64,000 nucleotides of DNA from Marinifilum sp. N1E240 (GTDB lineage: Bacteria; Bacteroidota; Bacteroidia; Bacteroidales; Marinifilaceae): the NCBI RefSeq assembly GCF_009295825.1, contig NZ_WHKF01000004.1, positions 186,001 to 250,000 on the forward strand. Direction: 5' to 3'. Below, piece by piece: positions 7,822 through 25,779 of the stretch. The notes beneath the pieces are model-generated. The model was not told the origin of the DNA. It did no database searches and was given only the letters and a program-made list of their open reading frames with translations. Both the position numbers and the translations under genes were made by a program. Each line of letters begins with the position of its first letter. The stretch's first letter is position 1.

Positions 7822-7889
7822 CGATCAATTTTTTGCATAGTTAGTAAAAACAGGTGCATTATTCAAGATTGTAGTAAAATCATTTTATC

Positions 7890-7947
7890 TACTAAAATTT
7901 TAGTAATAAAATTTGTCTACTAAAAAATTAGTACTAAGTTTGTAGTA
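7890..7947 (+). promoter_or_regulatory. Three tandem BlaI-type operators
   Basis: Three 16-bp TACT...AGTA palindromes: 7890-7905 (perfect, TACTAAAATTTTAGTA), 7918-7933 and 7932-7947. The last two overlap by 2 bp and cover the promoter spacer and the -7 box. BlaI/MecI dimers bind TACTnnnnnnnnAGTA-type dyads, so autorepression by the gene at 7973 is expected. Confidence 0.75.
7912..7942 (+). promoter_or_regulatory. Promoter of the first blaI-M56 operon
   Basis: -33 TTTG at 7912-7915, a 19-nt spacer, and -7 TAAGTTTG at 7935-7942, an exact match to the Bacteroidota consensus. The box is embedded in the BlaI-type operators. Confidence 0.75.
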
Positions 7948-17438: not shown

Positions 17439-17873
17439 ATGGAAGACAGAACAACACCAATCATCACTGAACAAATATTTACTAAATCAAAAGAGCAGGT
17501 TTGGAAAGCAATTACCGATCCTAATGAAATGCGATTGTGGTTTTTCGAAAATATGCCCGATTATTTAGCCAAGGTAGGCTTTGAAACCAAATTTAATGTG
17601 GATGCAGGAGAAAGACAATTCATGCATCTGTGGAAAATTACAGAAGTTATTCCAATGCAAAAGTTGGTGTGTAACTGGCAGTACGAAGGCTACACAGGAA
17701 GTGCCGATGTTATCTACGAACTAGAGGATGAGGGAAGCAATTGCAAATTAAGAGTAACAGCTATTGGTTTACATACTTTTGATAGGAATGTACCTGAATT
17801 TACATGCGAAAGCTGTCAGGGTGGCTGGCACTATTTTATCAATCAACGCTTAAAAGAGTATTTTCAGAAATAA
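17439..17873 (+). CDS. SRPBCC (AHSA1-like) domain protein
   Basis: 144 residues forming one START/Bet v1-type domain: ITEQIFTKSKEQVWKAITDP at the start, MRLWFFENMP, then the family's C-terminal helix GGWHYFINQRLKEYF. These proteins bind hydrophobic ligands or, in eukaryotes, activate Hsp90; the bacterial role is usually unknown. The stop codon overlaps the ATG of the next gene (TAATG), so the two are probably translationally coupled. Confidence 0.85.
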   Translation: MEDRTTPIITEQIFTKSKEQVWKAITDPNEMRLWFFENMPDYLAKVGFETKFNVDAGERQFMHLWKITEVIPMQKLVCNWQYEGYTGSADVIYELEDEGSNCKLRVTAIGLHTFDRNVPEFTCESCQGGWHYFINQRLKEYFQK

Positions 17874-18679
17874 TGAGTAGAATATTGAAGTATTTAGGAA
17901 GAGCTTTTCTATTTGTTGTATTAACAGTTGTTAGTCAAGTAGGAGGTTTGGTGTATTTTTTGAGTGCGATTTTAAGTAATCGGATTAGAGTCAGATTTTC
18001 TGGAAAAGGATTCCTGATTTTTATAATGCTTTATGTGCTGACCACATTTCTAATAATACCATATACAGCACCTTTTTTTGGTCGAGAGAAAATTAAGAAT
18101 AACAGTCATTTACAAGCAGCTAATTATTTGAGTATATTCTTGAATAGAAACTATGTTACGCCTGAAACAAATGTCTTTCTACAAAATATTTCAAATCATC
18201 TAGACAAAGCAAATTCGGATGTTCATGCTCGTTATCTCGATGCCTGCTTTCCTTTTTTTAAGGGTTTTCCTTTGTTACCGCATCTTAGTCATAAGGATGG
18301 TTGCAAAATTGACTTTAGCTTGGTGTATGAAGATGAGGATAGAAAAGTTGTAAATAAAGGAAAATCGAGAAGTGGCTATGGTGTTTTTGAAGACGCTAAA
18401 GATAATGAGTTCAATCAATGTTCTGATTGTTTGCAAAAAGGCTATTTCCAATACGATTATCCAAAATATTTAACTTTAGGAAAAATCAATTCTGAATTAA
18501 AATTTTCGAAGAAAGGAACGAAGGAATTGATAGATGCGATTTTGAGTCAGAAAGTACTAAGTAAAATGTTTATTGAACCACACCTTAAAAATAGAATGAA
18601 TTTAAGTGATAGTAGAATTAGATTTCATGGATGTGGAGCTGTAAGGCATGATGATCATATTCATGTTCAAATCAATTGA
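17873..18679 (+). CDS. Membrane-anchored LAS-type metallopeptidase-like protein
   Basis: 268 residues from the ATG that overlaps the SRPBCC stop codon. Two N-terminal hydrophobic segments (about 10-30 and 43-62) are followed by a soluble domain. In it I see SHKDGCKIDF (HxxGxxxD) and, at the end, CGAVRHDDHIHVQ (HxH). That is the zinc-ligand arrangement of LAS peptidases such as MepA and D-Ala-D-Ala peptidases, which cut peptidoglycan cross-links. The motif match is my own reading, and overall similarity to MepA is low. It may be a periplasmic cell-wall hydrolase. Confidence 0.5.
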   Translation: MSRILKYLGRAFLFVVLTVVSQVGGLVYFLSAILSNRIRVRFSGKGFLIFIMLYVLTTFLIIPYTAPFFGREKIKNNSHLQAANYLSIFLNRNYVTPETNVFLQNISNHLDKANSDVHARYLDACFPFFKGFPLLPHLSHKDGCKIDFSLVYEDEDRKVVNKGKSRSGYGVFEDAKDNEFNQCSDCLQKGYFQYDYPKYLTLGKINSELKFSKKGTKELIDAILSQKVLSKMFIEPHLKNRMNLSDSRIRFHGCGAVRHDDHIHVQIN

Positions 18680-18722: not shown

Positions 18723-19874
18723 ATGAAAAAATTGGTGCTTTGTTTAATGGTAATATTTCCGGCAATACTGTCTGCTCAGGAAATTAAATCTGTTCAAATC
18801 CATTCTGAGATTTTGAATCAACAAAGAGAGATCTTGGTTTATTTACCCTGGCAGTATAAAACCGAGCCTAATCGAAAATTTGAGACCATTTATGTTTTCG
18901 ATGCACAGGCTAGACAATATTTCGATTTTGTTCATTCCAGCATGAATTTTATAAATGAACAGTTTCCTATGATTGTGGTCGGAATTAAGTCTCCGCAAAG
19001 AGGTTTTGATTTTTTACCTAAAAACAATTATCAGCAAACATTTGAGAATAGAAGAGGAATGCTCGGCAAAGCAGATCAGTTTATGGATTTTATAAAGGAT
19101 GAACTTATTCCGCATATGAATAGCAACTACAGAGTGTTATCTGAGAGAATTGCTATTGGTCATTCTAATGGGGGAACATTTATTTCCTATTGTTTAATGG
19201 AAAATCCAAGTATGTTTAATGCTTATATCAATGTTTCGCCAAACTTTGCTTACGACAAATCTCAATTTGTAAATCGATTTAAAAAATTCAATTTAGATAT
19301 TTTAGATTCCAAAAAATACTACTATTTGTGTAAAGCAAATGAATCAGGAGCTGGATGGAAGTCATCAAATAAGAAAGTTAAAGCATTATTTGAGAGTAAG
19401 ATATATAGCAAGAAGTTTCACTTTGAATTCGATGATTTTTCTAATACGGATGATCATAGCTCTGTTTTTACCTTTGGAACTTTACAAGGTTTAAAAAAGT
19501 ACATTGATTATCAGTTTCTCACATCCAATAAATTAATTCAATATTACGATCGTTTGGAAAGTAATAAGGAGTTGAAATTAGGATCAGAAGAAATTAATAG
19601 CCTTGCATACGCACTTTTTAGAAAAGAGAAAGCAAATGACGCTATACAAGTTATTGAGTGGGGGATTAGAAAATATCCACTGTCCCATAATTTATATGAT
19701 AGCAAGGGAGAATTTCAAGAGTTTATGGGATATAGGGGAAGAGCTATGGCTTCCTATCAAAAAGCTATTGATGTGTTGATGGAACAAAAATCCACATTGC
19801 CTATGGCATTTTATGAGCAAAGGTTAAGATTGTATCGGGAGAGTATAAATCGCATTAGTATTGAGAAGAAATAA
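18723..19874 (+). CDS. Alpha/beta hydrolase, esterase D-like, with C-terminal helical repeats
   Basis: 383 residues with a signal peptide (MKKLVLCLMVIFPAILSAQ). The esterase domain resembles the IroE/Fes and esterase D group: VYLPWQYKTEPNRKFETIYV, MIVVGIKSP, and the nucleophile motif GHSNGG with Ser148. A candidate His is in DDHSSV near 245. The C-terminal 100 residues look like TPR helices (AYALFRKEKANDAIQVIEWG, YRGRAMASYQKAIDVL). Probably a periplasmic carboxylesterase; substrate unknown. Confidence 0.82.
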   Translation: MKKLVLCLMVIFPAILSAQEIKSVQIHSEILNQQREILVYLPWQYKTEPNRKFETIYVFDAQARQYFDFVHSSMNFINEQFPMIVVGIKSPQRGFDFLPKNNYQQTFENRRGMLGKADQFMDFIKDELIPHMNSNYRVLSERIAIGHSNGGTFISYCLMENPSMFNAYINVSPNFAYDKSQFVNRFKKFNLDILDSKKYYYLCKANESGAGWKSSNKKVKALFESKIYSKKFHFEFDDFSNTDDHSSVFTFGTLQGLKKYIDYQFLTSNKLIQYYDRLESNKELKLGSEEINSLAYALFRKEKANDAIQVIEWGIRKYPLSHNLYDSKGEFQEFMGYRGRAMASYQKAIDVLMEQKSTLPMAFYEQRLRLYRESINRISIEKK

Positions 19875-19924
19875 AAAAATGGATTGATACATGATTTTTA
19901 TATTGAATTACCAATTTGCATCAA

Positions 19925-20012
19925 AGAAAAAGGATCTTCACCCAGGCTTTTCTTCTAACCACTATTTACTAACCTAAATCTAATCTATGAAAAAAACATT
20001 TTACTGTTTTGT
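19925..20012 (-). ncRNA. Predicted small RNA unit 1 (decayed terminator)
   Basis: Minus-strand -7 box TACATTTG at 20026-20019, then the conserved core. The expected terminator hairpin lacks its GCCTGGGT arm (GGATCTTC instead), so this copy may be non-functional or read through. Ends are estimates. Confidence 0.25.
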
Positions 20013-20104
20013 ATGATACAAATGTAGTTGGTAAAACAGTTAAGTGGATTGAATAAATGTTAAGGGATTGTAAATGTATGCTTTAGATGCTTGAGTTTAT
20101 TCCA

Positions 20105-20196
20105 AAGAAAAAGCCTGGGTCCCCACCCAGGCTTTTCTTCTAACCACTATTTACTAACCTAAATCTAATCTATGAAAAAACGTTTTACTGTTTTGT
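20105..20196 (-). ncRNA. Predicted small RNA unit 2
   Basis: Minus-strand -7 box TACATTTG at 20210-20203 predicts a start near 20196. The RNA would contain the GTTAG-rich core (GGTTAGTAAATAGTGGTTAG) and end at an 11-bp hairpin (20110-20120 with 20125-20135) followed by five U. Ends are estimates from sequence. Alternative: the plus strand holds a 22-codon frame (20172-20240). Confidence 0.4.
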
Positions 20197-20288
20197 ATGA
20201 TACAAATGTAGTTGGTAAAACAGTTAAGTGGATTGAATAAATGTTAAAGGATTATAAATGTATGCTTTAGATGCTTGAGTTTATTCCA

Positions 20289-20380
20289 AAGAAAAAGCCT
20301 GGGTCCCCACCCAGGCTTTTCTTCTAACCACTATTTACTAACCTAAATCTAATCTATGAAAAAACGTTTTACTGTTTTGT
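20289..20380 (-). ncRNA. Predicted small RNA unit 3
   Basis: Near-identical to unit 2: -7 box TACATTTG at 20394-20387 on the minus strand, the same core, and a perfect 11-bp GC-rich terminator hairpin with a U-run. Ends are estimated. Confidence 0.4.
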
Positions 20381-20472
20381 ATGATACAAATGTAGTTGGT
20401 AAAACAGTTAAGTGGATTGAATAAATGTTAAAGGATTATAAATGTATGTTTTAGATGCTTGAGTTTATTCCA

Positions 20473-20564
20473 AAGAAAAAGCCTGGGTCCCCACCCAGGC
20501 TTTTCTTCTAACCACTATTTACTAACCTAAATCTAATCTATGAAAAAACGTTTTACTGTTTTGT
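20473..20564 (-). ncRNA. Predicted small RNA unit 4
   Basis: Minus-strand -7 box TACATTTG at 20578-20571, same core and terminator hairpin as units 2 and 3, with a few substitutions near the promoter end (GGTACA for GATACA on the plus strand). Ends are estimated. Confidence 0.4.
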
Positions 20565-20664
20565 ATGGTACAAATGTAGTCGGTAAAACAGTTAAGTGGA
20601 TTAAATAAATGTTAAAGGATTATAAAAGAAGAGTTAATAGTACTTTATTAAAAGTTATAGCAAC

Positions 20665-20755
20665 GAAAAATCCCGAACGGGCGTCCGGGATTCTCTCTAA
20701 CCACTAATTACTAACCTAAATCTTTAATCTATGAAAAATACTACTTGTTGTAGTA
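20665..20755 (-). ncRNA. Predicted small RNA unit 5 (diverged)
   Basis: A different hairpin (AATCCCG 20669-20675 with CGGGATT 20686-20692, five U on the minus strand) and a different 5' segment, but the same core (GGTTAGTAATTAGTGGTTAG). A consensus -7 box TACCTTTG (20769-20762) lies at almost the same distance from the core as in units 1-4 (40 versus 38 nt). The 5' segment can fold as TACTAC/GTAGTA. Conserved layout with changed sequence supports a transcribed unit. Confidence 0.4.
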
Positions 20756-21048
20756 CATTACCAAAGGTATGAAAATCAAAGGTTAACTCATGATAAGAAG
20801 TGTTAAAAAAGATTAAAAACCAATATGGTAAGGGGGGTTAAACAGTTGTATTTTGTGTTTTATCGATGATTAAATACGATTCGTTGGAGGAAATGTTTTT
20901 TAGAAAAATCTAAAAAAAATTAGCTAGAACTGCTTTTTATTTAATTTTTTTGTAAAAATGTTTTATTCCATAGCTCAAGTAATTTGTCTAAATTAGTGCC
21001 TTATCAGAAAACCAAGACTATTAGCACCAATAATTCTAATTTTACCTC

Positions 21049-24000
21049 ATGAATGAATCCTTACTGAATGCCTTGATGCGACTTTTTGCCATTATTGTTG
21101 ATGAGCAAAAGCTTGGCTTTGAGATGGCGGCACGTGATGTTGTTGCCAGTTGGCTTCAGAAACAGTTTAGTAAAGAGTGGATTGAGCACTATCTTGAAAA
21201 TTTTGATCGTTTTTTGAGGGAATCGTATTACGAGGATGGAAATAAAGATTCATTGCGTAAAAAGCATGAACAAGTTGCAAATATTTGTTTGAAATTAGCT
21301 GAAGAGGCTGAACAGGAACAAAAGGTCTGGGTGATGCTTCAATTGCTAGAGTTTATAGATGATACAGAATTCACAGGTCCTGAAGAACTTGATTTTGTAA
21401 AGACTGTATCTAAATCATTTCGTATTCCCAAACACGAGTTTGAATATGGTCGCCAATTTTTAATTGGAGATGAGTACTCAATTCCATTCAACGAACATTT
21501 ACTCCTAATTGATAACAATGAAAATTGGGAACATGAGGTAGTCAAGCATATCTATAGTCCTCGATTGCGTGGGAGAATATTTATTCTTCACCTAGAAAGT
21601 ACAAATACTTTAATCATGAAGTATTTTGGAGAGTATAACCTCTTTTTGAATGGGCACAATGTGAAATTGGATAGGGGCTATATTCTTTCGTTTGGATCTG
21701 TGGTTCGAAGTCCGCGAATTGACCCGATTTATTACTCACAGATTTCGTCGGTGTTTATTGAGAGAAGAAATTTATCAGATATTGAATTTATTGCTAAAGA
21801 AGTAGAGTTTAATTTTCCTGGATCAAATAATGGTTTGCAACCTGTTAGCATGAAAATGGAATCAGGTCAAATGGTTGGAGTAATGGGAGGAAGTGGAACT
21901 GGGAAGTCCACATTTTTGAATGTTCTGAATGGAAATCTTCCACTAAAGAATGGTGAGATTTTTATCAATGGTTACAATTTGCATATCGATAAGGAAAAAT
22001 TAAGAGGAGTTATCGGTTATGTTCCTCAAGATGACTTATTAGTTGAAGAGCTGACTGTATACGAAAACTTATATTACAATGCTAAATTGTGTTTCGATGA
22101 TACTTCTGATGAAATAATAGAGAAGATCATTGATAAAACAATTGAAGATTTTGATTTGGTTGAGGCTCGTGACCTTAAAGTTGGAGATCCGATTAATAAA
22201 GTTCTTAGCGGTGGTCAGCGTAAGCGCTTGAATATTGCATTAGAATTGATGCGAGAACCATCTGTACTTTTTGTAGATGAACCTACTTCGGGCTTATCAA
22301 GTATGGATTCTGAAAAGGTGATGATTCTTTTAAAGAGACAGGTTTTAAAAGGAAAACTTGTGATCTGTAATATCCATCAACCATCTTCCGATATTTTTAA
22401 ATTGCTTGATAAATTGGTGATGATGGATCAGGGGGGAAAGGTAATTTATTTTGGAAATCCTATTGATGCGGTTGTTTATTTTAAAACGCAATCACACTAT
22501 GTAAAAGCTGATGAAAGTGAGTGCCTGACTTGTGGTAACGTAAGTTCTGAGCAAATTTTACGGATTATTGAAGCTCGTATGATGAACGAGTATGGCAAGC
22601 AAATTCGTAAACGTAAGAGAAGCTCCGAGGAGTGGTATGAATTGTATCAGGAGAATATAGAAAATAAAACAAAGGTTACTAAACCAAAACGTAAGAAGCT
22701 TATTCCTAAAAACTATTTTAGTATTCCGAAGCGTTGGGATCAGTTAAAGATATATTTGTCGAGAGATATAAAATCAAAGTTAAGCAATCGACAATACATG
22801 TTGATAACCTTGCTGGAAGCACCGTTATTGGCTGTTATTCTTGGATATTTTACAAAATATATCAGTGGGGCAGATGTTGATCATCCTATTTATGTCTTTT
22901 CGAAGAATGAGAACATCCCTTCATTTATATTTATGGCTGTGGTTGTAGCCTTATTTTTAGGCTTAATCATATCCGCTGAGGAAATTCTGCATGATAGAAG
23001 GATGATGAAACGAGAGCAGTTTCTTAATTTAAGCCGCTCCAGTTATTTGAATTCCAAAGTCATTATACTCCTCATTATATCAGCAATTCAGACCTTCTTA
23101 TTTGTTTTGTTTGCAAATACTATTCTTGAGATCAAAGATCTTAGTATGGAATATTGGCTTGTTCTTTATACAGCTTCTGCCTGTGCCAATCTAATTGGAT
23201 TAAACTTATCGGCAGGTCTTAATTCAGTTGTTGCAGTTTATGTATCCATTCCATTTATTTTGGTGCCACAACTGTTGTTTTCTGGTGTAATTGTTAGTTT
23301 TAATAAACTTCACCCAGCAATAACAACTCAAAAGTATGTGCCCATTGTTGGTGATTTAATGACATCTCGTTGGGCTTATGAAGCTTTGGTGGTAGAGCAG
23401 TTCAAGAACAATGATTTTCAATCTCAATTTTTTCCATATGAACAAAAAATGAGTGAAGTCTCTTTTCGCTCATCATTCTTGCTTCCTTCTCTGAAACAAA
23501 CTTATAATTCATGGTTAAAAAAAGAGAATGAAAAAGATTTTCGATTGATAAAAAATGAATTGAGTAAACTATCGAATATCTATAATCTTCCTGAGGATAT
23601 TGAAATATCTCGAATTGCTTTGCGTCATTCAGAGGAAAAAGTAAATGCATGGTTAGATAGAATAAAACAGGCTGGTTGGGCTGAATATAAAACTCAATCG
23701 AATGAACGTGATAAAGTATTTGGTGGTCTAATTAATAGCTTGGGGGATCGTAATAAAGTGATTGAATTCAAGCAAGATTACCATAACGAAGCCATTGAGC
23801 AGATTGTTTTAAATCGAAGAGAAATCAATAAGCTTATAAAGTATGAAGAAGAGTTTATTCAGCTAAAAGATCCAGTTTTTCAGACGCCTATTTATAAGAA
23901 TGGGCGAGCACATTTTTTCGCATCTCAAAAGAGGCTCGGTAATTTTTTAATTGATACTTTTTGGTTCAATGTTATTATCATTTGGCTGACTACAATCATC

Positions 24001-24117
24001 TTTTATTTCTCTTTGTATTTTGATTTACTGCGCAGAGCAATACTTCTTATTGAAATATTCTGGGTTACTATCTTACCAGAAGGACATATTCGTATTACCC
24101 GAAAACGTCAGAAATAA
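21049..24117 (+). CDS. ABCG-like ABC transporter, fused ATPase and permease
   Basis: 1022 residues. An N-terminal helical domain (about 1-130) and an FHA-like beta segment (about 190-240) precede the ATPase: Walker A GGSGTGKST near 280, signature LSGGQRKRLNIALEL near 385, Walker B VLFVDEPTSGLSSMDSE near 405. This is the eye-pigment/ABCG order, ATPase first. A membrane domain follows (about 580-790, including FIFMAVVVALFLGLIIS and VVAVYVSIPFILVPQLLFSG), then a charged helical region and a last membrane helix near 970. Substrate unknown. The gene at the left window edge is a paralogue by its N-terminus. Confidence 0.85.
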   Translation: MNESLLNALMRLFAIIVDEQKLGFEMAARDVVASWLQKQFSKEWIEHYLENFDRFLRESYYEDGNKDSLRKKHEQVANICLKLAEEAEQEQKVWVMLQLLEFIDDTEFTGPEELDFVKTVSKSFRIPKHEFEYGRQFLIGDEYSIPFNEHLLLIDNNENWEHEVVKHIYSPRLRGRIFILHLESTNTLIMKYFGEYNLFLNGHNVKLDRGYILSFGSVVRSPRIDPIYYSQISSVFIERRNLSDIEFIAKEVEFNFPGSNNGLQPVSMKMESGQMVGVMGGSGTGKSTFLNVLNGNLPLKNGEIFINGYNLHIDKEKLRGVIGYVPQDDLLVEELTVYENLYYNAKLCFDDTSDEIIEKIIDKTIEDFDLVEARDLKVGDPINKVLSGGQRKRLNIALELMREPSVLFVDEPTSGLSSMDSEKVMILLKRQVLKGKLVICNIHQPSSDIFKLLDKLVMMDQGGKVIYFGNPIDAVVYFKTQSHYVKADESECLTCGNVSSEQILRIIEARMMNEYGKQIRKRKRSSEEWYELYQENIENKTKVTKPKRKKLIPKNYFSIPKRWDQLKIYLSRDIKSKLSNRQYMLITLLEAPLLAVILGYFTKYISGADVDHPIYVFSKNENIPSFIFMAVVVALFLGLIISAEEILHDRRMMKREQFLNLSRSSYLNSKVIILLIISAIQTFLFVLFANTILEIKDLSMEYWLVLYTASACANLIGLNLSAGLNSVVAVYVSIPFILVPQLLFSGVIVSFNKLHPAITTQKYVPIVGDLMTSRWAYEALVVEQFKNNDFQSQFFPYEQKMSEVSFRSSFLLPSLKQTYNSWLKKENEKDFRLIKNELSKLSNIYNLPEDIEISRIALRHSEEKVNAWLDRIKQAGWAEYKTQSNERDKVFGGLINSLGDRNKVIEFKQDYHNEAIEQIVLNRREINKLIKYEEEFIQLKDPVFQTPIYKNGRAHFFASQKRLGNFLIDTFWFNVIIIWLTTIIFYFSLYFDLLRRAILLIEIFWVTILPEGHIRITRKRQK

Positions 24118-24158: not shown

Positions 24159-24254
24159 ATTTTGAAATCACCAATAGTAGCAATCATATCGCTCTAGTGT
24201 ATTAAATTCACGTTAAAAGTCTTTTTTGTATTATTTCTTCATTTTTTGGTATCG

Positions 24255-24262
24255 TATTTTTG
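24255..24262 (+). promoter_or_regulatory. -7 box upstream of the GH47 gene
   Basis: TATTTTTG fits TAnnTTTG and would give a leader of about 80 nt before the ATG at 24349. No -33 box at the right spacing, so tentative. Confidence 0.3.
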
Positions 24263-24348
24263 AGGAAGATTTGAATTTATTGACAAAATTGCAATATCTG
24301 TTAATTTTAAATTTGAGAGAATTGACAAAGAATAAAATTGAATTTATA

Positions 24349-25779
24349 ATGAAGAAGCTAAGTTATTTGCTAATTTTTTTTGCTATCGTAATTGCTGCTT
24401 GTCAGACAAAGGATGTAAAAAATAAAGAGATTAAGATTAGTCCTTTAGCAGAGGAAGTTAAAAATGAGTTTGTACGATCTTGGGAAGCTTATAAGAAATA
24501 CGCTTGGGGACATGATGTATTATTACCATTATCAAAATCATATCAAGATTGGTACAAAGAATCCTTACATATTTCGCCTATTGATGCCTACAGTACCATG
24601 AAAGTTATGGGATTGGATCAGCAAGCTAAGGAAGTTGAAAATTATTTGATCGATAGTATCACTTGGGATAAGGATTTGTTTGTTAAAACATTCGAGGTCA
24701 ATATTCGAATTATGGGAGGATTGTTGGCAATGTATGAATACAATCCTGATCCAAGGATACTTGAAAAAGCCGAAGATTTTGGAAAAAGAATGTTGAAAGC
24801 ATTCGACTCTCCAACAGGGATTCCATATTACTGGGTGAATTTGAAAACTGGAGAAACTAAAGGTGCTAAAATTAATTTGGCTGAAGCTGCTTCTTACATG
24901 TTTGAGTTGGGAATCTTGAGTTATTATACTGGTAATCCTATTTATTATCAAACTGCAAAGAAGGCAAATTTGGCTATTTGGGAGAGGCGTTCTGAATTGA
25001 ATTTGGTGGCTGATTTAATTGATGTGGAAACAGGCGAATGGTTAAACGATCATTCCCACATTTGCGCAGGAGCCGATTCATACTACGAATATTTGTATAA
25101 GAGTATGTTGCTATTCGGAGATAAGGATTCACAAAAAATGTGGGATGAAAGTATTGATGCTATCAACAAACATGTAGCAGAAGAAACAGATTTAACATTG
25201 TGGTATGGTCGTGTAAATATGCACACAGGCACTCGCGATTGTATCGATTCGCATTCAGGAAGACAATTTGCTAGTATTGTAACTTTGTACGATGCATTTT
25301 TCCAGTCAATTTTAGCCTTGGATGGTGATGTAAGAAGAGCAGAAAAAACTCAGAATACCTGGAATGGACTTTGGAATAAATATGGTTTAGAACCTATGAT
25401 CTATGATTACAAACAAGGAGAACCAACTTATCCTGTTTACGATTTAAATCCTGAAATTATTGAATCTGCATATTATTTATATCACATAACAGGTAAGAAA
25501 AAATATTACAATATGGTTGATCAGTATTGGTCAGATATTAAGAAATATTGTAGAACTGAAATTGCTTTTTCATCGGTGAATGATGTTAGAACAATGGAGA
25601 AAAAGGATTACATGCCAACCTTCTTTTTTGCAGAGACGTTGAAATATCTGTACTTGACTTTTACAGAAGAAACAGGAGTTTTTAATTTGGATGATTATGT
25701 GTTTAATACAGAAGCACATCCTTTTGCTAAAAAATCCTTTGATCCTGAAAAGGTGAAAAAGAATTTAGGTTTAGAATAA
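24349..25779 (+). CDS. Glycoside hydrolase family 47 (alpha-mannosidase-like) lipoprotein
   Basis: 476 residues from ATG 24349, which gives a lipoprotein signal (MKKLSYLLIFFAIVIAAC, Cys18); the frame is open upstream but only into AT-rich leader. The remainder follows the GH47/EDEM (alpha/alpha)7-barrel pattern: NLAEAASYMFELGILSYYTG (acid candidate Glu179), GADSYYEYLYKSMLLFGD (Asp243, Glu247), NPEIIESAYYLYHITG, MPTFFFAETLKYLYLTF, and VFNTEAHPF near the end, whose Thr binds calcium in known members. The family cuts alpha-1,2-mannose links. It probably acts on mannose-containing glycans in the periplasm or at the surface. An AraC regulator follows. Confidence 0.82.
   Translation: MKKLSYLLIFFAIVIAACQTKDVKNKEIKISPLAEEVKNEFVRSWEAYKKYAWGHDVLLPLSKSYQDWYKESLHISPIDAYSTMKVMGLDQQAKEVENYLIDSITWDKDLFVKTFEVNIRIMGGLLAMYEYNPDPRILEKAEDFGKRMLKAFDSPTGIPYYWVNLKTGETKGAKINLAEAASYMFELGILSYYTGNPIYYQTAKKANLAIWERRSELNLVADLIDVETGEWLNDHSHICAGADSYYEYLYKSMLLFGDKDSQKMWDESIDAINKHVAEETDLTLWYGRVNMHTGTRDCIDSHSGRQFASIVTLYDAFFQSILALDGDVRRAEKTQNTWNGLWNKYGLEPMIYDYKQGEPTYPVYDLNPEIIESAYYLYHITGKKKYYNMVDQYWSDIKKYCRTEIAFSSVNDVRTMEKKDYMPTFFFAETLKYLYLTFTEETGVFNLDDYVFNTEAHPFAKKSFDPEKVKKNLGLE

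Follow-up and report, generated by a model that had tools for sequence, protein, structure and literature searches.

A tandem array of predicted FopS-like small RNA genes with complementarity to SusC start regions in Marinifilum sp. N1E240

Organization of the array

Five head-to-tail units, all on the minus strand, occupy positions 19922-20806 (promoter elements counted) of the window, the whole 64-kb stretch of Marinifilum sp. N1E240 DNA that was analysed. They lie between an esterase-family gene and an ABC transporter gene, as the initial annotation of this DNA, which placed an array between two genes, had described. Four of the units are near-identical, and the fifth (unit 5) is diverged. 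Every unit contains a GGUUAG-rich core between a TAnnTTTG box and a terminator, in agreement with the three-part minus-strand plan proposed earlier, and a hairpin followed by T5 was found at the places where hairpins with at least five U had been reported. The annotated interval, 19921-20790, covered real repeats but ended short of the promoter element of unit 5, which reaches 20806. The features are listed below, with bit scores from model R1, which was built from five units.

18723-19874, plus strand: esterase-family gene, on the other flank of the array
19922-20026, minus strand: unit 1, -7 box to T-run, with a shortened terminator stem (80.6 bits; folding z 0.31)
19955-19995, minus strand: seed of unit 1, 41 letters identical to the seed of unit 4
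20019-20063, minus strand: promoter element of unit 1
20103-20210, minus strand: unit 2, -7 box to T-run (100.0 bits)
20140-20180, minus strand: seed of unit 2, 41 letters identical to the seed of unit 4
20203-20247, minus strand: promoter element of unit 2
20287-20394, minus strand: unit 3, -7 box to T-run (100.0 bits)
20324-20364, minus strand: seed of unit 3, 41 letters identical to the seed of unit 4
20387-20431, minus strand: promoter element of unit 3
20471-20578, minus strand: unit 4, -7 box to T-run (99.0 bits)
20508-20548, minus strand: seed of unit 4, 41 nt, with predicted pairing to SusC start regions
20571-20615, minus strand: promoter element of unit 4
20661-20769, minus strand: unit 5, with -7 box (20762-20769), 5' hairpin UACUAC..GUAGUA, core and terminator (97.5 bits, unit 5 being among the sequences from which R1 was built)
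20697-20739, minus strand: seed of unit 5, antisense of a start region (the target test used the seed of the other units)
20762-20806, minus strand: promoter element of unit 5, TTAAC-N15-TTAAC-N12-TAnnTTTG
21049-24117, plus strand: ABC transporter gene, a conserved neighbour of the array and context rather than part of the RNA genes

Tandem Repeats Finder reported a period of 184, with 3.7 copies and 98% matches, at 19939-20626. The successive 184-base stretches of units 2 and 3 are identical at 183 of 184 positions, and such near-identity of neighbouring units points to recent duplication in N1E240, in line with the earlier proposal of a recent copy-number expansion. A 26-base core occurs five times in the array (at 19955, 20140, 20324, 20508 and 20697), against a mean of 0 in 100 shuffles. 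Within 19880-20860, five TAnnTTTG boxes lie on the minus strand, one per unit, and none on the plus strand. From the end of the box to GATTTAGG there are 37 bases in each of units 4, 3 and 2, 38 in unit 1 and 39 in unit 5; apart from one base, this matches the distances of 38 versus 40 given in the initial annotation.

Two further observations concern the window itself. The gene at 24226-25779, which adjoins the ABC transporter gene, encodes a protein of glycosyl hydrolase family 47 (PF01532, E 1.4e-104), and an AT-rich short tandem repeat of 28 bp is found at 7868-7937.

Paralogous units in the genome

A search of the N1E240 genome with the 26-base core returned ten matches, all exact though three mismatches were permitted: five in the array, three on contig C11 and two on contig C6. 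The reversed core, used as a control, had no match in this genome. Model R1 gave 12 matches genome-wide, including two singletons outside arrays (C21:845561 and C61:85949), and a promoter pattern described below added two more, so that this genome has many paralogues. The two additional sRNA-like units, C6:31632 and C63:545, were first detected by the promoter pattern; the genome-wide R1 run did not list them, but a small targeted run over 8 kb placed them exactly at the predicted positions with 30.7 and 23.4 bits (E 0.00017 and 0.0053), and the same plan could be read in both by eye. C32:602741 and C52:15453 may be further members. A match of the Rfam FopS model at C11:1166191 (23.5 bits) was rejected as a paralogue, as it is antisense to a start region bound by the seed, from which it follows that models of the FopS type can also catch targets on the opposite strand.

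A shared promoter element

Ahead of the box, the consensus drawn from 15 representatives has TTAAC-like half-sites with a 10-bp spacing, starting 47, 37, 27 and 17 bases before it, the one at -27 keeping only its TT. Both well-kept half-sites were present in 97 of the family's 111 unique upstream regions, in the same orientation as the box. Such 10-bp spacing is reminiscent of sites of the OmpR/PhoB type, and the element is probably the site of one regulator.

The pattern TTAACN14-16TTARCN11-13TANNTTTG, which contains no core or terminator letters, was found at 15 sites in the N1E240 genome, compared with two for the reversed pattern. Twelve of the 15 precede known units (the ten with the core, plus C21:845561 and C61:85949), two precede the further RNAs C6:31632 and C63:545 and one precedes a protein gene. 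Promoter letters alone therefore recover the RNA family, which provides independent support for transcription from the minus strand. The pattern is a strict one, failed by five of the 15 representatives. Ten upstream regions taken from strong FopS matches in two other families (f60 and f106, presumably Bacteroidaceae) showed no TTAAC element. The site before a protein gene (C41:396824-396868, minus strand) precedes a 271-codon gene with AhpC/TSA and thioredoxin-like domains, possibly a member of the same regulon as the sRNAs.

RNA folding

Folded as RNA, unit 5 had a z-score of -3.7 and units 2/3 had -3.3, while two intact units from C6 and C11 had -4.2 and -3.4. The value of 0.31 for unit 1 indicates a weakened terminator, and the damaged hairpin that had been annotated in this unit is thereby confirmed. 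Across ten aligned units, the -7 box and the core are constant and the letters of the terminator vary. RNAalifold predicted 29 pairs for this alignment, four of which show compensatory changes on both sides, all of them in the terminator; it did not predict the 5' hairpin in these ten units, pairing part of the box instead.

The letters of the 5' hairpin differ by type (AAAAC/GUUUU, UACUAC/GUAGUA, ACGG/CCGU and AGAGAAA/UUUCUCU). The fold was predicted in 13 of 20 representatives, and in an arm-swap test on these 20, swapped halves paired equally well in 135 of 5000 permutations. The median folding z of the leader was -0.30 (112 leaders from 123 unique sequences). The 5' segment of about 20 nt may, at a weak level of support, form a short hairpin. 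In three variant units from Marinifilum (L111:1954-2059, L132:6664-6769 and L148:754-870), a longer hairpin (AGAGAAA/UUUCUCU or similar) replaces UUUUUUCAUAG; these units have lost the start-codon part of the seed and kept GGUUAG.

Resemblance to FopS

According to PMC11697453, FopS is a family of paralogous sRNAs, with 14 members in B. thetaiotaomicron, which attach to susC mRNAs close to the start codon and prevent their translation; the RRM protein RbpB antagonizes this activity. The same paper describes the conservation of FopS within Bacteroidaceae and states that GibS carries the R1 seed also found in FopS. The initial annotation regarded the array as an undescribed RNA, a view we do not retain, as its core belongs to the FopS type (RF04319; Nat Commun 2025, PMC11697453), though the units score below the Rfam cut-off.

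At the gathering threshold, Rfam had no match in the 64-kb window. The best array unit scored 34.3 bits with RF04319, whose gathering cut-off is 56, and when this model was run over the N1E240 genome, the ten core-bearing units were within the 13 best matches (34.3 to 24.9 bits, E 0.005-0.32). In the same scan, MicC, surely unrelated, scored slightly higher (35.6 bits, cut-off 90), which we take as chance; matches to MicX, Thr_leader, CRISPR-DR55 and others at the low threshold were likewise rejected as chance matches driven by hairpins.

Like FopS, the units are multicopy, have TAnnTTTG before the RNA, end in a terminator and are complementary to SusC start regions; they also have a seed of the type UUUUUCAUAG..AUUAGAUUUA-GGUUA, and this R1-type 5' seed aligns to the FopS model. 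Unlike FopS, they score below the Rfam cut-off, are arranged in tandem, carry an extra 5' segment of about 20 nt ahead of the seed, have a longer conserved stretch that ends in GUGGUUAG and lie downstream of a TTAAC element. GibS of B. thetaiotaomicron (RF04182) differs in having a second seed, R2, and the array units reach only 21.1 bits with its model (cut-off 115). Multicopy sibling sRNAs with similar neighbouring copies also occur in other bacteria, such as NgncR_162/163 in Neisseria and LhrC in Listeria, whose sequences and targets are unrelated to those of the array.

In an alignment of 32 sequences, TTTTCAT is invariant and GGTTA nearly so; because the sequences had been preselected by TTTCAT, only the conservation of GGTTA counts as free evidence. 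This alignment comprises 32 of 42 listed stretches, one being truncated at its end, and MAFFT misaligned the terminators. A literature search, with most subscription papers outside its reach, returned no tandem multicopy sRNA for Bacteroidetes and no sRNA for Labilibaculum, and its matches for small RNA and Marinifilum were all unrelated by title. A FopS-type sRNA as such is already known; what is new is the tandem locus beside one ABC transporter gene, the TTAAC element and a genome with no RRM_1 match.

Predicted pairing with SusC start regions

Duplex energies were computed between the 41-nt seed of units 1-4 and start regions (-35..+15) of 24 SusC genes of N1E240 above the TIGR04056 cut-off, with 802 further ORFs, each 150 codons or longer, from 1.264 Mb of the same genome as controls. 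The median was -19.95 kcal/mol for SusC genes and -11.0 kcal/mol for controls. Energies of -20 kcal/mol or lower were reached by 12 of 24 SusC genes versus 18 of 802 controls (p 3e-8 on energy and 1.1e-7 on z against shuffled seeds), the controls including TonB-receptor genes under the TIGR04056 cut-off, such as C11:52175 (-27.0 kcal/mol). When alternative in-frame starts were allowed, the counts were 12 of 24 and 22 of 802. The reversed seed gave p 0.057, or p 0.16 with alternative in-frame starts. With the seed stripped of its start-codon part, UUUUUUCAU, and only the leader compared, the difference persisted over all genes (p 2.8e-6 on z; reversed p 0.37) and among genes starting with ATGAAA (13 SusC genes and 147 controls; p 5e-5 on z). 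Half of the SusC genes (12 of 24) fell short of -20 kcal/mol, five of the 24 fell short even of -12, and 38 of 802 controls reached -18 kcal/mol. The start regions of N1E240 have a common consensus, and part of the pairing is thus generic.

The comparison was repeated in G664, a one-contig genome from another genus of Marinifilaceae, with a seed from one of its own units; 30 of its 32 SusC loci above the cut-off were taken, and the exclusion of one whose frame is broken left 29. Energies of -20 kcal/mol or lower were reached by 11 of 29 SusC genes (18 fell short), by 0 of 45 ORFs drawn from 13 Labilibaculum loci, with some orthology among them, and by 16 of the 802 N1E240 ORFs. The corresponding p values on z were 5e-8 and 1.7e-10, and those of the reversed seed 0.92 and 0.57.

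The best target in N1E240 was the SusC gene C65:112993, with -36.8 kcal/mol the lowest of the 826 start regions tested, and a SusC gene of G664 (L288) with nearly the same start region reached -28.2 kcal/mol. The cluster around C65:112993 (L285:3129-13128) contains AnmK, NlpC/P60, enolase-superfamily, SusC, SusD and NAGPA-domain genes, a content that suggests muropeptide salvage.

Conservation and genomic neighbourhood

In N1E240 and named Marinifilaceae DNA, R1 had 132 matches in 62 sources. One that overlaps a unit lying on the other strand (L110:4445-4550) was dropped. TAnnTTTG lies at the first base of the model in 97 of the 123 unique sequences that remained. A 21-base core pattern was found exactly in 56 stretches of genome contigs, all from Marinifilum, Labilibaculum or Marinifilaceae, and in exact matching it was not found in viral contigs. 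Wherever a source contained several units (37 sources), all of them were co-directional.

A homologue of the ABC transporter gene lies beside the units in 13 of 56 named loci. Five of these 13 also have a homologue of the gene at 17804-18679 of the window, which is separated from the array by the esterase gene, and carry two (L149 and L126), three (L118 and L106) or seven (L103) units by R1, a count that could miss diverged units; loci seen from one side have up to six (L147). The same ABC transporter neighbour in Marinifilum and Labilibaculum indicates that the array locus predates the split of the two genera.

Across the order, R1 at E 0.01 matched 18 of 247 genomes, N1E240 included, where about 2.5 chance matches would be expected if the E-values, which are rough, held. 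Among 20 order loci outside N1E240 that were considered, TTTCAT was present in 15 of the 16 examined; L076, L077, L081 and L092 were left out, and L077 looks like a false match. Across the phylum, RF04319 at E 0.01 matched 10 of 395 genomes, again with N1E240 included, five of them above the cut-off.

RNA-binding partner proteins

In Bacteroides, FopS is antagonized by RbpB, whereas an RRM_1 search (PF00076, RbpB-type) at E 0.001 had no match in the 99.99% complete N1E240 genome and matched the control, Bacteroides ihuae. For Hfq, there was no match in the N1E240 genome, and the Bacteroides control was likewise unmatched. Of 56 genomes of the family, the 28 without RRM_1 had a median of eight R1 matches (27 with any and 22 with at least three), compared with a median of one in the 28 with RRM_1 (16 with any and none with at least three), a comparison confounded by descent, by the derivation of R1 from the clade that lacks RRM and by the incompleteness of some genomes. 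All 22 family genomes with at least three R1 matches are therefore without an RRM_1 match. This is a lead to, rather than proof of, sRNA action independent of RbpB.

Proposed mechanism and alternatives

We consider it likely, with a probability of about 0.82, that the array consists of FopS-like sRNA genes that mask the start codons of SusC-type importers. It would comprise five genes, each with a minus-strand TAnnTTTG promoter of its own under the shared TTAAC element with 10-bp spacing; the predicted sRNAs, roughly 90-100 nt long, would each run from a 5' segment through a seed (UUUUUUCAUAGAUUAGAUUUAGGUUAG...GGUUAG) to a terminator. By computed pairing, the seed would cover the start codon and about 30 nt before it in many SusC-type importer mRNAs; by analogy with FopS, ribosome initiation on these mRNAs would then be blocked. 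The near-identical copies may raise the dose of the RNA and may owe their tandem arrangement to this effect, and the regulation would operate in cells with no detected RRM_1 (RbpB-type) or Hfq gene.

The likeness to FopS may reflect common descent. That sRNA genes of the same function instead arose by convergence, unrelated RNAs having reached the complement of a shared SusC start consensus, appears rather unlikely: the targets could dictate the identity of the seed, and the scores below the Rfam cut-off, the 5' extension absent from FopS and the TTAAC element not seen in the ten FopS upstream regions are all compatible with separate origins, but FopS and the units share the order of their parts as well as close seed identity, and similar RNAs occur in other families of the order. 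The remaining explanations dispense with minus-strand sRNAs altogether. The plus strand does resemble a start region with ATGAAAAAA, and CTAACC...ATGAAAAAA transcripts might act as sponges (decoys) for FopS-type RNAs or as short-peptide leaders; this is very improbable, given that all five boxes in 19880-20860 are on the minus strand and that box and TTAAC element are co-oriented in 97 of 111 unique upstream regions, while plus-strand frames from ATG range from 4 to 63 codons with differing sequences and two units have no such ATG. That these frames are not kept, and that 14 of the 15 promoter-pattern sites precede RNAs of this kind, agrees with the minus-strand promoter-core-terminator genes proposed in the initial annotation. 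Least probable of all is an untranscribed REP or MITE-like repeat family that has spread through the genome, which numerous near-identical copies with hairpins might bring to mind; the ten exact core copies are confined to three places, the core stays constant while hairpin letters change in pairs, the same gene neighbours the units in two genera and the units are complementary to SusC start regions.

Starting from the FopS-like sRNA genes, a wider picture can be put forward tentatively, at slightly less than even odds. FopS may be one branch of a class of start-codon-masking sRNAs across Bacteroidales, perhaps all Bacteroidia, in which a clade of Marinifilaceae would form an RbpB-independent regulon of up to about 15 genes, with array length tuning the dose and one regulator acting on the TTAAC operator, so that SusC output would be set as a whole.

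For Marinifilaceae, the shared promoter element is a candidate answer to what turns these RNAs on, the array locus, with its two to seven units, provides a natural gradation in the number of sRNA genes, and the family genomes richest in copies, being without an RRM_1 match, constitute a natural test of the need for an RRM protein. Control of glycan importers by RNAs of the FopS type would extend to Marinifilaceae and, by weaker matches, to other families of the order.
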